Assembly: GCA_002781805.1 (NCBI GenBank)
Contig: PFFZ01000044.1
Coordinates: forward strand, 1 to 12,162
Direction of reading: 5' to 3'
DNA: 12,162 nucleotides
Origin: Nitrosopumilales archaeon CG15_BIG_FIL_POST_REV_8_21_14_020_37_12
Lineage (GTDB): Archaea > Thermoproteota > Nitrososphaeria > Nitrososphaerales > Nitrosopumilaceae
Shown piece after piece: positions 6,846 through 12,162 of the stretch. The position numbers and the translations under genes were made by a program. Position 1 is the first letter of the stretch. Every line of letters begins with the position of its first letter. Under the pieces are notes generated by a model. That model made no database searches and was not told where the DNA came from. It worked only from the letters and a program-made list of their open reading frames with translations.

Positions 6846-8240
6846 ATGGCAGCAGGAATAGACGACATTGCAATATACATTCCAAGGTTATACATAGATG
6901 CAGCTGATTTTGCCAAGGCCAGAGGGTTAGATCCGGCAAAACTGCAAAAGGGATTAGGAGTATCACAGATGGCAATCGTTGACACCAACCAAGATCCTGC
7001 ATGTCTAGCTGCAAATGCATGTCTAAAAATCATGCAAAAAAACAAACTTTCACCAGAAGATATTGGAAGATTATATGTTTCCACTGAATCATCATTTGAC
7101 GAATCAAAGGCAATGAACTCCTATGTTATTGGGATGCTAGAACAGGTTTACGGACAAGGAGCTTTTGAGCACTGTGGTGGAGTTGAGACAAAGTTTGCCT
7201 GTGTCAGTGGCTCTTACGCATTATATGACAACACTAACTGGATTAGAGCAGGTGAGGCTGAGGGAAAACATGCATTGGTTGTAGTGTCAGACATTGCAAA
7301 ATACGATATGGGTTCTAGCGGAGAGATGACACAGGGAGCTGGCGCAGTTGTAATGTTGTTAAACGACAAACCAAGACTATTGGCGTTTGACCCAAAGGTC
7401 ACATCAACATCAATTAAAGATGAATATGATTTTTACAGACCATTTGGAAAAGAAACTCCAATTGTCCATGGACAGTATTCTAATTTACTTTACATGATAC
7501 AAGTGAGAAAAGCTCTAGAATCTTACAAAAAGAAAGTTCTTGCAACAGGATTAATGAGGTTAGAACCAGGAGAAACGATTTTGGATCATATTGATTATCT
7601 CAACATGCACCTACCATACAGCAACATGGGTAAAAAAGCACTAGCGTATCTGGTCAGACATGAATGGAGACAACTTCCAAGATGGAAGAAAATAATCCAG
7701 AGCATAGGGATGGAAGAGCCAGTTCCAAAAGACCCTCGCGGCACTATTGAATCAGTATTGGGAGACGAGGAGTTTATGGCAAAAGATCACGAGTTTACAA
7801 AATTATTTACAAAAACACCTGAATTTCAAGAGGTGTATGAAGCAAAGCTTTCTAGTTCACTTATTGCATCAAAGATGATTGGTAACTTGTACACTGCATC
7901 ATTATACTTGGGATTTAGAAGCAGTTTAGAGTTTGAATACCAAAAAGGAATAGACCTTAATGCAAAGAGAATAGGGTTTGGTTCATACGGCAGTGGCAGC
8001 AGTGCAATGGTGTTTAGCGGCGCCATTCAACCAGAATATGAAGAAATCGTCAAGGACATGAACCTAGAGGCAGAGATTGGCAATAGACGCAAATTGACAC
8101 TTGATGAGTATGAGGAATTACATGAAAACAAACTCACGCCTGAAGATGCAATGTTACATTCCAAACATGAGTTTGTTTTAGTAGATGTAAAAACAGACGT
8201 GGAATCTAGAGGCGAAAGACGCTATGTCTTTAATGAATAA
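6846..8240 (+). CDS. Hydroxymethylglutaryl-CoA synthase, long bacterial/eukaryotic-type form
   Basis: Condenses acetyl-CoA with acetoacetyl-CoA to HMG-CoA, the committed carbon source for mevalonate and archaeal isoprenoid lipids. The catalytic triad is visible: E81 in STESSFDESK, C119 in FACVSG and H255 in NMHLPYSNMGKKA. Supporting motifs are GAGAVVM (164-170), IGNLYTASLYLGF (345-357) and GSYGSGSSA (379-387). At 464 residues, and with NLYTASLYL and SYGSG segments, it resembles the MvaS/eukaryotic type more than the roughly 350-residue enzyme most archaea use with a thiolase and a DUF35 protein. The 136-residue Cys-to-His spacing is also close to the eukaryotic value. The ATG is fixed by a Shine-Dalgarno site 8 bp upstream. 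The stop TAA overlaps the next gene's ATG by one base, suggesting translational coupling. Function is secure; the origin is inference. Confidence 0.93.
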   Translation: MAAGIDDIAIYIPRLYIDAADFAKARGLDPAKLQKGLGVSQMAIVDTNQDPACLAANACLKIMQKNKLSPEDIGRLYVSTESSFDESKAMNSYVIGMLEQVYGQGAFEHCGGVETKFACVSGSYALYDNTNWIRAGEAEGKHALVVVSDIAKYDMGSSGEMTQGAGAVVMLLNDKPRLLAFDPKVTSTSIKDEYDFYRPFGKETPIVHGQYSNLLYMIQVRKALESYKKKVLATGLMRLEPGETILDHIDYLNMHLPYSNMGKKALAYLVRHEWRQLPRWKKIIQSIGMEEPVPKDPRGTIESVLGDEEFMAKDHEFTKLFTKTPEFQEVYEAKLSSSLIASKMIGNLYTASLYLGFRSSLEFEYQKGIDLNAKRIGFGSYGSGSSAMVFSGAIQPEYEEIVKDMNLEAEIGNRRKLTLDEYEELHENKLTPEDAMLHSKHEFVLVDVKTDVESRGERRYVFNE

Positions 8241-8788: not shown

Positions 8789-9472
8789 TCATGACAAAAT
8801 GGATTTCAAATCTAAATTCTTTTTAAATATTTTATGCAAAGATGAATCACTCAAATCATCGATGAATGGAATCGAACCCAGTATGTTTATGCCAGTAAGG
8901 TTTCTCAAATCACGTTTCAAGTCATTTTCTGCATATCCATCATCAAAATTATTGATAATTATTCCCTTGATTGGGATTTTGTATTTCTCACACATTTTAC
9001 AAGTCATGATTGTATGATTCACAGTTCCAACCCTGCTTCTCGTAACAATTACTGCAGGAATTTTCATTTCTTTAATGAGGTTAATCACATAGTAATCGCT
9101 CAAGATAGGAGTCATAATTCCACCCATGCCTTCAACAAGCAACATATCATGTAGTTTGGATAGCTTTTTGAAACTGTCAAGAATCAAGTTGACTCTAGGT
9201 TTTGTTTTCAGATTCTTCCATGCAGTATAAGGGGATGCTGCAATTGGAAAGAATTGTGGATTCATCAGGCTTTCAGGATCAGATGTTTGTGCTGCCCTTG
9301 AAAGAATTTCAACGTCTTCGGACTTGAAGCCTTCTTTTTGAGCGATTCCTGCAGCAAAGGGCTTCATCACACCGACATCAATATTCATTTTACGTATTGC
9401 AACGGCCAAACCCGCTGTGACGTATGTTTTACCTACATCTGTATCAGTACCTGTGATGAATAGAGATTTCAT
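8789..9472 (-). CDS. bioD: Dethiobiotin synthetase
   Basis: ATP-dependent ring closure of 7,8-diaminopelargonate with CO2 to dethiobiotin, the penultimate step of biotin synthesis, in the cytoplasm. From the chosen start (227 residues) the signatures are the P-loop GTDTDVGKT (residues 8-16), the substrate/phosphate lysine K37 in MKPFAAG, SPYTAW (80-85) and VEGMGG (113-118, the family VEGAGG with Ala to Met). NNF near 174-176 matches the nucleotide-base region. Length is normal for BioD (about 225). The frame also has an ATG at 9487 adding MLGNS; 9472 is preferred because it places the P-loop strand at the usual distance from the N-terminus. It is divergent from bioA, supporting its role in the cluster. 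Its stop abuts the stop of the convergent upstream-operon gene. Confidence 0.92.
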   Translation of the reverse strand: MKSLFITGTDTDVGKTYVTAGLAVAIRKMNIDVGVMKPFAAGIAQKEGFKSEDVEILSRAAQTSDPESLMNPQFFPIAASPYTAWKNLKTKPRVNLILDSFKKLSKLHDMLLVEGMGGIMTPILSDYYVINLIKEMKIPAVIVTRSRVGTVNHTIMTCKMCEKYKIPIKGIIINNFDDGYAENDLKRDLRNLTGINILGSIPFIDDLSDSSLHKIFKKNLDLKSILS

Positions 9473-9490
9473 GGAATTTCCTAACATGGT

Positions 9491-9544: not shown

Positions 9545-10858
9545 TTGAAAAGCTCCGTATGGCACCCAAATACACAGATGAAGGAATGGGATTATTTTGA
9601 TAAAATCACCAGTGCCAAAGGCATGTGGCTTACAGATTCCAAGGGACATAAGATGATTGATGCAGTGGCATCAATGTGGTGTAATGTTTGGGGTCACTCA
9701 AAACCAGAATTGGTCAGGGCCATTACAAAACAAAGCAAAAAACTACAACACACATCAATATTCAACATTACAAACGAACCTGTAGAAAAATTAGCTAAGA
9801 ATCTAGTAAAAATCTCACCTGGAATGCACAAAGCGTTTTTCTCAGATAATGGTTCATCAGCCATGGAAATTTCATTTAAGATTGCTTTACAATATTGGCA
9901 CAACCTAGGAGAAAAAAAGAAAACAAAGATCATGACACTACAAAATGGATATCACGGAGATACATTTGGAGCCATGGCAGTAGGGTATGTGCCGGAATTT
10001 TTTGGCAAATTTAAAAAACATCTATTCCCTACAATACAGATTCCAGTGCCAAACCAATATCGGCTTCCAAACAATTACACTCTATTGGAATATGAAAATT
10101 ATTGTCTAGACATGATAGAAAAAATTATGTCAAAAGACAACAAAATAGCGGCATTTGTGATGGAAAGCGGTGCACAAGTCGCAGGTGGAGTCATAATTTA
10201 TCCAAGAGGGTTCCAAAAAAGAATCAGTGAGATTTGTAAAAAATACAATGTGTTACTAGTATTAGATGAGATTGCCACAGGGTTTGGCAGGCTAGGTTCA
10301 ATGACAGAATATACGAATCAGAAGAGCAACCCAGACATTGTTTCATTTGGAAAAATGCTAACTGGAGGATATCTCACAATGGCTGCAACACTAGTCAATA
10401 AAAAAATTTATGGCTCATTTTTAGGCGATTTTAATGATTGGAGGCATTTGTTTCACGGTCATACATATACAGGAAACCCGCTTGCCGCCTCAGTTGCAAA
10501 TGAAAGTTTAAGACTATACCAAAAAGAAAGATTGATCAAAAAAATCCACAACACATCCAGGGTTTTTGAAAAGTATTATGATGAAATTTCTGAGATTGAC
10601 ATAGTAGGAGACATCAGGCACAAAGGAATGCTGATGGGTATTGAACTGGTAAAAGACAAGAGAAAGAAGACACCGATTCATCCAGAAAAATCAATCAATA
10701 AAATATTTTATGAGATTGGCAAGAAAAACGGGATTTATCTCAGAACCCTGGGCAACATAGTCATGCTTGTACCCCCATTGGCAATATCTGAAAAGGAACT
10801 AAACATGCTCATTTGCAATGCCATTGCGACCATAAAAGATGCAAGAAAACATGTGTAG
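9545..10858 (+). CDS. bioA: Adenosylmethionine-8-amino-7-oxononanoate (DAPA) aminotransferase
   Basis: PLP enzyme that converts 8-amino-7-oxononanoate to 7,8-diaminononanoate in biotin synthesis. The 437 residues show VWHPNTQM (5-12, matching the family W-H-P-x-T-Q start), SMWCNVWGH (43-51), DNGSSAMEI (101-109), the PLP-stacking Y136 in YHGDT, D241 in DEIATGFGR, the Schiff-base lysine K270 in SFGKMLTGGY, HTYTGNPLA (306-314) and R400 in YLRTLGN. The start is TTG: an in-frame TAG lies immediately before it (9542-9544), and the next ATG (residue 12) would remove the conserved HP-x-TQ segment. The enzyme could use SAM or, as in Bacillus-type BioA/BioK, lysine as amino donor; the sequence alone does not decide this. 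bioB follows after 73 bp with its own promoter. Confidence 0.93.
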   Translation: MKSSVWHPNTQMKEWDYFDKITSAKGMWLTDSKGHKMIDAVASMWCNVWGHSKPELVRAITKQSKKLQHTSIFNITNEPVEKLAKNLVKISPGMHKAFFSDNGSSAMEISFKIALQYWHNLGEKKKTKIMTLQNGYHGDTFGAMAVGYVPEFFGKFKKHLFPTIQIPVPNQYRLPNNYTLLEYENYCLDMIEKIMSKDNKIAAFVMESGAQVAGGVIIYPRGFQKRISEICKKYNVLLVLDEIATGFGRLGSMTEYTNQKSNPDIVSFGKMLTGGYLTMAATLVNKKIYGSFLGDFNDWRHLFHGHTYTGNPLAASVANESLRLYQKERLIKKIHNTSRVFEKYYDEISEIDIVGDIRHKGMLMGIELVKDKRKKTPIHPEKSINKIFYEIGKKNGIYLRTLGNIVMLVPPLAISEKELNMLICNAIATIKDARKHV

Positions 10859-10889
10859 TGTTAACCTGAATCATTCAAATGGTTAACCT
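10858..10889. promoter_or_regulatory. BirA-type biotin operator upstream of bioB
   Basis: The inverted repeat GTTAACC (10860-10866), 14-bp spacer, GGTTAAC (10881-10887) is perfect over 7+7 bases. The extended halves GTGTTAACC and GGTTAACCT match the known BirA operator pattern (WTGTWAACC, 14-16 bp, GGTTWACAW) at 8 of 9 positions each. The left half touches the last base of the bioA stop codon. The right half ends about 10 bp before the bioB TATA-like box, next to where TFB would bind. Biotin-loaded BirA binding here could block pre-initiation complex assembly. Regulation is inferred; the motif itself is directly visible. Confidence 0.72.
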
Positions 10890-10898
10890 TTCCAATAA

Positions 10899-10908
10899 TC
10901 TTATTTAA
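10899..10908 (+). promoter_or_regulatory. Putative TATA box for bioB
   Basis: TCTTATTTAA lies 24-33 bp upstream of the bioB ATG at 10932, the right distance for a leaderless mRNA. An ATG at 10918 falls in the gap, but its frame stops after three codons (ATG AAA AAA TAA). Confidence 0.5.
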
Positions 10909-10931
10909 CGGAAATTAATGAAAAAATAAGG

Positions 10932-11912
10932 ATGGATTTTGCACTAAAACACATCAAAGAATGCCAAGAAAAGGTATTTTCAGGAATTGGCCTATCAGTG
11001 CAGGATGTGGAGAAATTGTTTGACACACCTGATGAAAATCTACAAGACTTGGCAAAGGCTGCAAACGAGATTACGCGAGATTTTAACGGTAATAAGGTAG
11101 ATGTAGAAGAATTAAACAACATCAAGAAAAATGCGTGTAGCGAGGACTGTTCGTTTTGTGGACAATCAGCATTTTTTGACACAGGAATTGACACATACCA
11201 ATTGCCATCCCCGCAAGAAGTAGTTGTAAAAGCTCAAAATGCAAAAAATGATGGTGCAGAATCATACTGTTTGGTTGCGGCATGGAGAGCGCCATCTCAA
11301 AGAGACTTTGAAAAGGTATGTGAGATTATCTCTTTGATTAATGAAAAGGTTGGAATTAGCGTAGAATGTAGTTTGGGATTTCTAACACCAGATCAGGCAA
11401 AAAGACTAAAAGAACTCAAAGTCAAGAGATATAATCACAACTTGGAGACTGCAAGATCAAAATTTGCAGAAATTTGTACTACACATACATACAACGACAG
11501 ACTAGAAACACTAAGAATTGCACGAGATGCAGGGTTGGAGTTATGTACGGGAGGAATTATTGGTTTGGGGGAGACGAGAAAACAAAGAGTAGAATTGACG
11601 CTGGAACTGGCTTCAATCTTTCCAGAAGAAGTAACAATCAACATATTGGTTCCAATCCCTGGAACACCACTAGAGCTTCAAACACCATTACCAAATTCAG
11701 AGATAACCAGAATGTTCTCAGTAATTAGATTCTTGCTGCCAGAATCAGTAATCAAAATTTCAGGAGGACGTGAGACAAGTCTTGGAGATGACGGTGAAGA
11801 GTTGCTACAGAGTGGGGCAAACGGGATAATTACTTCAGGGTATCTCACGATGAATGGAAATAGTGCTGAAAAAGACATCAGAATGATAAAAAAGATAGGC
11901 CTTGAAGCCTAG
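10932..11912 (+). CDS. bioB: Biotin synthase (radical SAM)
   Basis: Inserts sulfur into dethiobiotin to make biotin, using a [4Fe-4S]/SAM centre and a sacrificial [2Fe-2S] cluster. The 326-residue protein has the radical-SAM cysteines C69, C73 and C76 in ACSEDCSFCGQSA. Candidate [2Fe-2S] ligands are C113 (SYCLVAAWR), C146 (VECSLG), C205 (LELCTGG) and R280 (SGGRE), so the full ligand set is present. YNHNLET (167-173) and GGIIGLGET (207-215) are diagnostic for BioB against other radical SAM enzymes. Length is normal. The ATG is supported by a TATA-like box 24-33 bp upstream; no spaced Shine-Dalgarno is present, so the mRNA is probably leaderless. Probably controlled by the BirA-type operator in front of it. 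No bioF follows. Confidence 0.96.
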   Translation: MDFALKHIKECQEKVFSGIGLSVQDVEKLFDTPDENLQDLAKAANEITRDFNGNKVDVEELNNIKKNACSEDCSFCGQSAFFDTGIDTYQLPSPQEVVVKAQNAKNDGAESYCLVAAWRAPSQRDFEKVCEIISLINEKVGISVECSLGFLTPDQAKRLKELKVKRYNHNLETARSKFAEICTTHTYNDRLETLRIARDAGLELCTGGIIGLGETRKQRVELTLELASIFPEEVTINILVPIPGTPLELQTPLPNSEITRMFSVIRFLLPESVIKISGGRETSLGDDGEELLQSGANGIITSGYLTMNGNSAEKDIRMIKKIGLEA

Positions 11913-12004
11913 CATAAGTAATTGGACGCAAATCTGCGTTGATGATGCAGAAAAATCATATTTGAACAGATGTCAACTTTACAGCATCAAGTAAAAATTT
12001 AATT

Positions 12005-12034
12005 TAAAAATAAAAAAGAAAGTGCGCTTTTTCT
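12005..12034. terminator. Bidirectional terminator between bioB and the convergent surface-protein gene
   Basis: A small hairpin AAAG-TGCG-CTTT (12019-12030) runs into CTTTTTCTT on the + strand. Read on the minus strand it runs into CTTTCTTTTTTATTTTT. Both strands therefore end in U-rich RNA at the junction of two convergent genes. The stem is short, so the U-tracts probably matter most. Confidence 0.45.
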
Positions 12035-12162
12035 TAAGCAGCACAGATGTTTATTACTGCATGTATCGCTATTGTTCCTGAATTTGTGATTGATCCTCCA
12101 CATAGATTGAATAATGCTCCATCATTCGTGATTGTATTACTGTTGGAAAACAAGCCTTGATT
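12034..12162 (-). CDS. C-terminal fragment of a beta-helix/repeat surface-type protein (partial, runs off right edge)
   Basis: The minus-strand frame is open from the window edge to a TAA at 12034-12036 and gives 42 residues. They include FSNSNTITNDGALFN, GGSITNSGTIAIH and end INICAA. The N-S-x-TITN-x-G and ITNSGTI rhythm is typical of beta-helical repeats in large secreted adhesin-like or surface proteins, which are common in marine thaumarchaea. Two cysteines lie in the fragment (LCGG and the INICAA end). A U-rich stretch follows the stop. The family cannot be named more precisely from the fragment, and most of the gene lies outside the window. Confidence 0.68.
   Translation of the reverse strand, partial: NQGLFSNSNTITNDGALFNLCGGSITNSGTIAIHAVINICAA

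Follow-up and report, generated by a model that had tools for sequence, protein, structure and literature searches.

The window, that is the whole stretch of 12,162 nucleotides analysed here, carries the biotin genes bioD, bioA and bioB, and a BirA-type palindrome lies between the last two. The features discussed are the following.

8789..9487, minus strand: bioD, divergent from bioA, without an operator of its own (Pfam AAA_26)
9545..10858, plus strand: bioA, the upstream neighbour, without an operator of its own (Pfam Aminotran_3, class-III aminotransferase)
10860..10866, plus strand: left half-site GTTAACC of the BirA-type operator (window sequence; conserved at bioB in the family)
10867..10880, plus strand: 14-nt spacer, variable among relatives (low column conservation)
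10881..10887, plus strand: right half-site GGTTAAC of the BirA-type operator (window sequence; conserved at bioB in the family)
10901..10908, plus strand: TATA-like TTATTTAA of the putative bioB promoter, 13 nt past the operator
10932..11912, plus strand: bioB, the gene behind the operator (Pfam Radical_SAM, BATS)

The core of the palindrome, GTTAACC TGAATCATTCAAAT GGTTAAC, occupies positions 10860-10887 and is the sole exact match in the window; dinucleotide shuffles of the window gave exact matches in 0/200 cases. The first-pass annotation had described a perfect 7+7 inverted repeat, GTTAACC-N14-GGTTAAC, and this description holds, except that the interval given there (10858-10889) includes two flanking bases on each side of the core. 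Its placement between the bioA stop and the bioB TATA box is also confirmed, the stop being at 10858 with the operator directly after it and the TATA-like stretch further on. When the window was scanned with GTWAACY-N14/15-RGTTWAC and matches were listed to 3 mismatches, two other matches appeared. One of them, GTTAACC-N14-ATTTAAC at 10882-10909 (one mismatch), takes the right half of the operator as its left half; it was set aside because it overlies the TATA-like box and because G001 and G004 have other letters in its second half. The other has 3 mismatches and lies within an open frame (7902-7929). bioA and bioD are thus without a visible operator, and the scan supports the earlier suggestion that bioB would be controlled separately from them.

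The bioB site fits the inverted-repeat pattern of BirA, GTWAACC-N14/15-GGTTWAC. The BirA consensus of bacterial biotin genes is given as TTGTAAACC-[N14/15]-GGTTTACAA, with a TTGTtAACC variant tabulated alongside (PMC545781, in the portion available); the outer flanks of the window core are G and T, unlike the outer T and A of that consensus. Judged from its sequence, the palindrome in front of bioB is very probably a docking site of BirA. On the other side of bioB (window 11913-12162) the host differs from G002, since bioF does not follow. On contig C16 the similarity to G002 breaks off with the end of bioB, and on contig C17, which carries the host bioF (G000:C17:10982-11467), it does so near the same point (L397, L398). 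Both contigs run into unrelated sequence, with a repeat-like frame on C16, and the break between bioB and bioF is either an insertion between the genes or an assembly fault.

Conservation was followed in 151 genomes of the family Nitrosopumilaceae, representing 22 genera (labelled g1, g2 and so on), which were searched for the N14 motif (at most one mismatch), BirA, L3 and BioB. The motif was present in 95/151 genomes, BirA in 139/151, L3 in 141/151 and BioB in 141/151, some BioB rows being weak matches that resemble other radical-SAM proteins. Upstream regions were read for representatives of each genus, some loci having been picked by the motif itself, and operators were counted by script (at most one mismatch to GTWAACY-N14/15-RGTTWAC, within 160 nt); by this count an operator stands before bioB in 65 of the 67 genomes of 15 genera (g1, g2, g3, g5, g7, g8, g9, g11, g12, g17, g18, g19, g20, g21 and g22). 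The two misses, G099 and G129 of g17, have a variant with a 16-nt spacer (N16) at bioB. With the same threshold and distance, no operator was found at bioB in any of 19 genomes of g4 (2), g6 (1), g10 (1), g13 (1) and g14 (14). A separate scan of unplaced rows detected the bioB operator in G015, G072 and G084 of g12, and none in G018, G035 and G074 (g15), G019 (g16) or G026 (g2), nor in the 89 nt of upstream sequence scanned for G013 (g10). Conservation upstream of bioB in relatives, raised as a check in the first-pass annotation, is thus observed. Beyond the family, an operator lies close upstream of bioB in the outgroup genomes G053 and G238 (family f2) and G236, G239 and G242 (family f8), five genomes of two families; the bioB operator is thus probably older than the family studied here.

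With spacers of 14 or 15, a single additional exact copy of the operator is present in the host genome (G000; 1.02 Mb, completeness 61%), situated at G000:C17:4402-4429, upstream of rpl3. The product of this gene is recognised by Pfam Ribosomal_L3 (235.8 bits), and the target is therefore ribosomal protein L3, not a gene of biotin metabolism or transport. The first-pass annotation had proposed a search for further copies at bioF, bioY or carboxylase genes; the single additional host copy is at none of these. rpl3 leads a ribosomal-protein cluster, and the frames after it in G002 resemble, by eye, L4, L23, S19, L22 and S3. In the host, 14 nt separate the end of the operator from TTTATTAG, and a further 27 nt lie between that element and the ATG, so that the distance from operator to TATA-like box is 14 nt at rpl3 and 13 nt at bioB. 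Since transcript starts can be predicted from the TATA box by the usual archaeal spacing, the rpl3 transcript would begin near the ATG. The distance between bioB and rpl3 is ∼8 kb in G002 and G003 (G002:C1:506767-514921) and 5-17 kb in many other genera, which makes the two BirA-type sites close neighbours in the genome.

The specificity of the pair of sites is apparent from 30 near-complete relatives, in which a relaxed pattern detected 38 sites, 38/38 at bioB or rpl3 according to the coordinates of BioB and L3; a reversed control pattern gave 15 matches in the same genomes. Each of 12 genomes of g1 and g11 has two sites, one at bioB, one at rpl3 and none elsewhere, and rpl3 is the sole site in 7/7 near-complete genomes of g14. 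A single site, at bioB, was found in G005, G008, G020, G022, G025, G036 and G082, and no relaxed-pattern site in G009, G011, G026 and G099; nor did bioY, birA or carboxylase genes carry one in the 30 genomes. A functionless palindrome arisen by chance, for which the short, A/T-rich half-sites and the matches of the reversed pattern could be invoked, is already refuted by the conservation of place and half-sites in 15 genera, and the confinement of all 38 sites to two genes and the empty shuffles of the window also tell against it; practically no weight can be given to it.

Matches elsewhere were also encountered and are taken as chance. They comprise, among the matches listed, some in coding sequence of g14 genomes (L031, L034) and one in G015 (L017) that is either intergenic or coding, together with family f8 matches away from bioB in G057 and G237 (both inside an open frame), G043 and G224, and a match of G227 within the ribosomal stretch, at the place of L23. 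The same holds for a site of a third kind, GTTAACC-N15-AGTTAAC, in the g13 genome G016 (L359, G016:C61:13774-13802), which is situated between open frames with no obvious biotin gene. Besides its bioB and rpl3 sites, G166 shows an apparent second bioA, followed by an operator of its own at the contig end (L378, G166:C14).

The rpl3 site was examined in the best 80 loci for host L3, a sample biased to close kin (mostly Nitrosarchaeum and Nitrosopumilus) of which 79 were readable upstream. Among these, 73/79 have the full operator, with a 14-nt spacer in 73/73, at 46-50 nt before the start. Conservation in the best-80 loci amounts to 1.92 and 1.91 bits per column in the half-sites, 0.72 in the spacer, 0.66 in the upstream flank and 1.38 in the TATA stretch; the core is flanked by T two bases before (1.9 bits) and A two bases after (2.0 bits), as in the published consensus. 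The six other readable loci (L326, L344-L347 and L350) all carry GGTTAAC 17-18 nt before the ATG. Across genera, the full operator lies upstream of the TATA box in g1 (5/5), g11 (10/10), g13 (1/1), g14 (18/18) and g18 (7/7), i.e. in 41/41 cases, and in g17 a one-mismatch form, GTTAYCY-N15-GGTTAAC, sits astride the TATA box (8/8); the other sixteen genera have none (0/55). In nine genera a lone GGTTWAC is found 17-24 nt before the rpl3 ATG, next to the TATA box: g3 (3/4), g5 (4/4), g7 (1/1), g12 (4/4), g16 (1/1), g19 (7/9), g20 (1/3), g21 (3/3) and g22 (2/2). Neither full nor half-site was found in the rpl3 upstream regions of g2, g4, g6, g8, g9, g10 and g15. A search on both strands with TAATGGGGTTWAC gave 15 matches in 22 genomes, 14 of them at rpl3, and 8 for the reversed pattern; the lone half-site is a specific element. 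Because g1, g11, g13, g14 and g18 group together in the BirA tree, which has an open backbone (support for the group 92/83, below the 95/80 mark), the upstream rpl3 operator looks like the invention of a single clade.

The host genome has one biotin protein ligase match, a 333-aa frame in which HTH_11, BPL_LplA_LipB and BPL_C all score above the Pfam cut-off. The N-terminal helix-turn-helix (HTH) that the first-pass annotation had proposed to look for is therefore present and, together with the ligase catalytic and C-terminal domains, places host BirA among the group II biotin protein ligases. With the HTH present and the bioB site conserved in relatives, neither of the two refuting observations named in that annotation was made. 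The solved chains that match it best are annotated as bifunctional ligase/repressor BirA and cover residues 14-330, the HTH included, whereas 235-aa ligases align only from residue 81. When BirA proteins of one or more genomes per genus were surveyed, 17 genera and G005 showed a recognisable N-terminal HTH and g4, g6, g10, g15 and G026 did not, genus g2 being mixed (G005 with HTH, G026 without); Pfam HTH_11 was absent from the four HTH-less examples scanned (G018, G007, G009 and G013). In the HTH-less lineages BirA retains its ligase part, and its DNA-binding part is degraded or absent (L212-L220); the genomes of g4, one such lineage, measure ∼0.8 Mb. A covariation between recognition helix and half-site (SRAA with GTAAACC, SRVA with GTTAACC), an idea prompted by the helix letters of E. 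coli and B. subtilis BirA, was rejected: the alanine genera form one clade, threonine pairs with both kinds of half-site (G082, G019 and G078) and rpl3 of g20 is an exception (3,0,1,6; p 0.033), which leaves this covariation weakly supported.

Operators accompany the HTH. By Fisher tests that ignore kinship, a full operator at bioB or rpl3 occurs in 17/18 HTH lineages versus 0/5 HTH-less ones (p 1.8e-4), and the bioB operator alone in 15/18 versus 0/5 (p 0.0017). The HTH-less genomes G007, G009, G018, G026, G028, G035 and G074 have no relaxed-pattern site genome-wide, and the 12/90 family genomes without such a match in a class-wide scan are seven HTH-less genomes and five of g8 and g17; among the matches listed, G018 has one to the N14 motif with one mismatch, outside the bioB and rpl3 upstream regions read. 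This distribution bears on the reading that the sites at bioB and rpl3 are both owned by a transcription factor other than BirA, which draws on the fact that BirA is designated through motif, HTH and co-occurrence. It is very unlikely, considering that the sites match the published BirA consensus (PMC545781, as far as accessible), that the operator is found at bioB in 15 genera and five genomes of two outgroup families, and that sites are absent from HTH-less lineages.

More serious is the reading that BirA acts at bioB only, the look-alike at rpl3 being the site of another winged-helix regulator or a basal promoter element. rpl3 is no biotin gene, nine genera show just one half-site, beside the TATA box, and the full rpl3 operator, considered by itself, shows no significant association with the HTH (6/18 versus 0/5, p 0.27, again ignoring kinship). 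However, rpl3 full or half-sites are found in 15/18 HTH lineages versus 0/5 HTH-less ones (p 0.0017, likewise ignoring kinship), and in g1 and g11 identical half-sites with a 14-nt spacer are confined to bioB and rpl3. Genus g14 is the most telling, with a bioB operator in 0/14, an rpl3 operator in 18/18 and an intact HTH in 13/13 proteins examined: if selection keeps this HTH, rpl3 would be the only visible reason, although weaker sites elsewhere are possible. Exceptions that count against control of both genes by BirA are G019 (HTH, no full operator at bioB or rpl3), G005, g8 and g9 (HTH and bioB operator, nothing at rpl3) and the N16 variant at bioB in G099 and G129. Restriction of BirA to bioB is, on this evidence, unlikely. 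The preferred reading, which we consider probable, is that BirA has one operator at the bioB promoter and, in the clade of the host, a second at the promoter of the rpl3 cluster. The bacterial-style repressor on an archaeal bioB promoter imagined in the first-pass annotation would thereby stand, given the BirA-type site, the host HTH and the conservation in relatives; the second target at rpl3 was unforeseen.

From the sites, their specificity and conservation, and their co-occurrence with the HTH, we infer binding, repression and signal as follows. BirA charged with biotinyl-5′-AMP would dimerise on GTWAACY-N14/15-RGTTWAC, and the bound dimer, just upstream of the TATA box or across it, would hinder TFB/TBP and thus repress the bioB and rpl3 promoters. 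In known logic, unbiotinylated carrier protein draws BirA off DNA. When carboxylase is being made and such protein is abundant, BirA would be engaged as ligase and both promoters would be released; synthesis of new carboxylase would then coincide with an open ribosomal operon. A single Biotin_lipoyl match per genome was found in 10/10 genomes searched, and we take this protein to be the biotin carrier that serves the acetyl/propionyl-CoA carboxylase in the CO2-fixation cycle.

The sign of control at rpl3 deserves separate consideration, since BirA might bind both sites and repress bioB but activate rpl3 (e.g. biotin sufficiency permitting ribosome synthesis). Such activation would be physiologically simpler, and in g1, g11, g13, g14 and g18 the operator lies upstream of the TATA-like box, a place used by archaeal activators. 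On the other hand, the operator-to-TATA distance in the host is nearly equal at both genes, and the TATA box of g17 rpl3 lies between the two half-sites of the operator; together with the g19 bioB operator, which ends beside a TATA-like stretch, this bracketing makes repression the better fit. Activation of rpl3 is thus improbable, to about the same degree as the restriction of BirA to bioB, and its probability is included in that of the preferred reading, from which it departs in sign only. A point against repression of both promoters is that there is no evident reason for ribosome synthesis to fall at high biotin.

Only tentatively, and as a conjecture that may well fail, can it be proposed that in Nitrosopumilaceae BirA has turned growth controller, sensing the unbiotinylated carrier of the CO2-fixation carboxylase and setting transcription of the rpl3 operon, which would couple carbon fixation to ribosome synthesis. 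For g14, ribosomal control may then be the sole role preserving the BirA DNA-binding domain. The rpl3 site suggests that ribosome production is tied, unexpectedly, to vitamin or carbon-fixation status, and we know of no account of how ammonia-oxidising archaea match ribosome synthesis to slow, energy-limited carbon fixation. The enzyme that would read out this putative regulon is the one that charges the single biotin-carrier protein of the genomes searched, and with two visible targets, biotin synthase and a ribosomal operon, an in vitro test requires one protein and two DNA fragments.

Concerning earlier systems, Rodionov et al. 2002 reportedly described a BirA regulon and signal conserved across Eubacteria and Archaea, with co-occurrence of HTH and sites, and are said to have included neither an ammonia-oxidising archaeon nor a ribosomal gene. 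The present system resembles that regulon in its HTH-bearing BirA and in a signal conserved in both domains. Because a BirA signal in bacteria and archaea was proposed there, the bioB part, taken by itself, adds no new kind; by its sequence features the bioB operator is a typical representative of a known one, in a group for which the literature searched gave no report of it. Archaeal BirA with an HTH has already been published (PMC3199775), BirA is named in general terms in a work on thaumarchaeal biotin genes (PMC6138646) and is mentioned only as a fusion in PMC11237513, each to the extent of the text available. Literature searches, to partly accessible texts and with most subscription journals outside their reach, gave no link between BirA and ribosomal-protein genes and no report of BirA as a regulator in ammonia-oxidising archaea, which is weak evidence of absence given this scope.

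In comparison with bacterial BirA operators (PMC545781, available portion), the half-sites, the spacer length, the place before bioB and the presence of an HTH-bearing BirA in the genome are alike, whereas the promoter here is archaeal and a second site lies at rpl3; in addition, most genera here have T at the third position in one half-site or both (GTTAAC). The BirA of Bacillus subtilis has three operators and binds them only with biotin and ATP (PMC4016012, accessible part). Both proteins are group II ligases with an N-terminal HTH and few operators per genome; the B. subtilis enzyme is characterised biochemically and the archaeal system by its sequence, and the operons targeted in B. subtilis, of bio or putative transport function, are bioWAFDBI, yuiG and yhfUTS, whereas here a ribosomal gene is among the candidate targets. 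It is this candidate operator at rpl3 that makes the putative BirA regulon a new variant.
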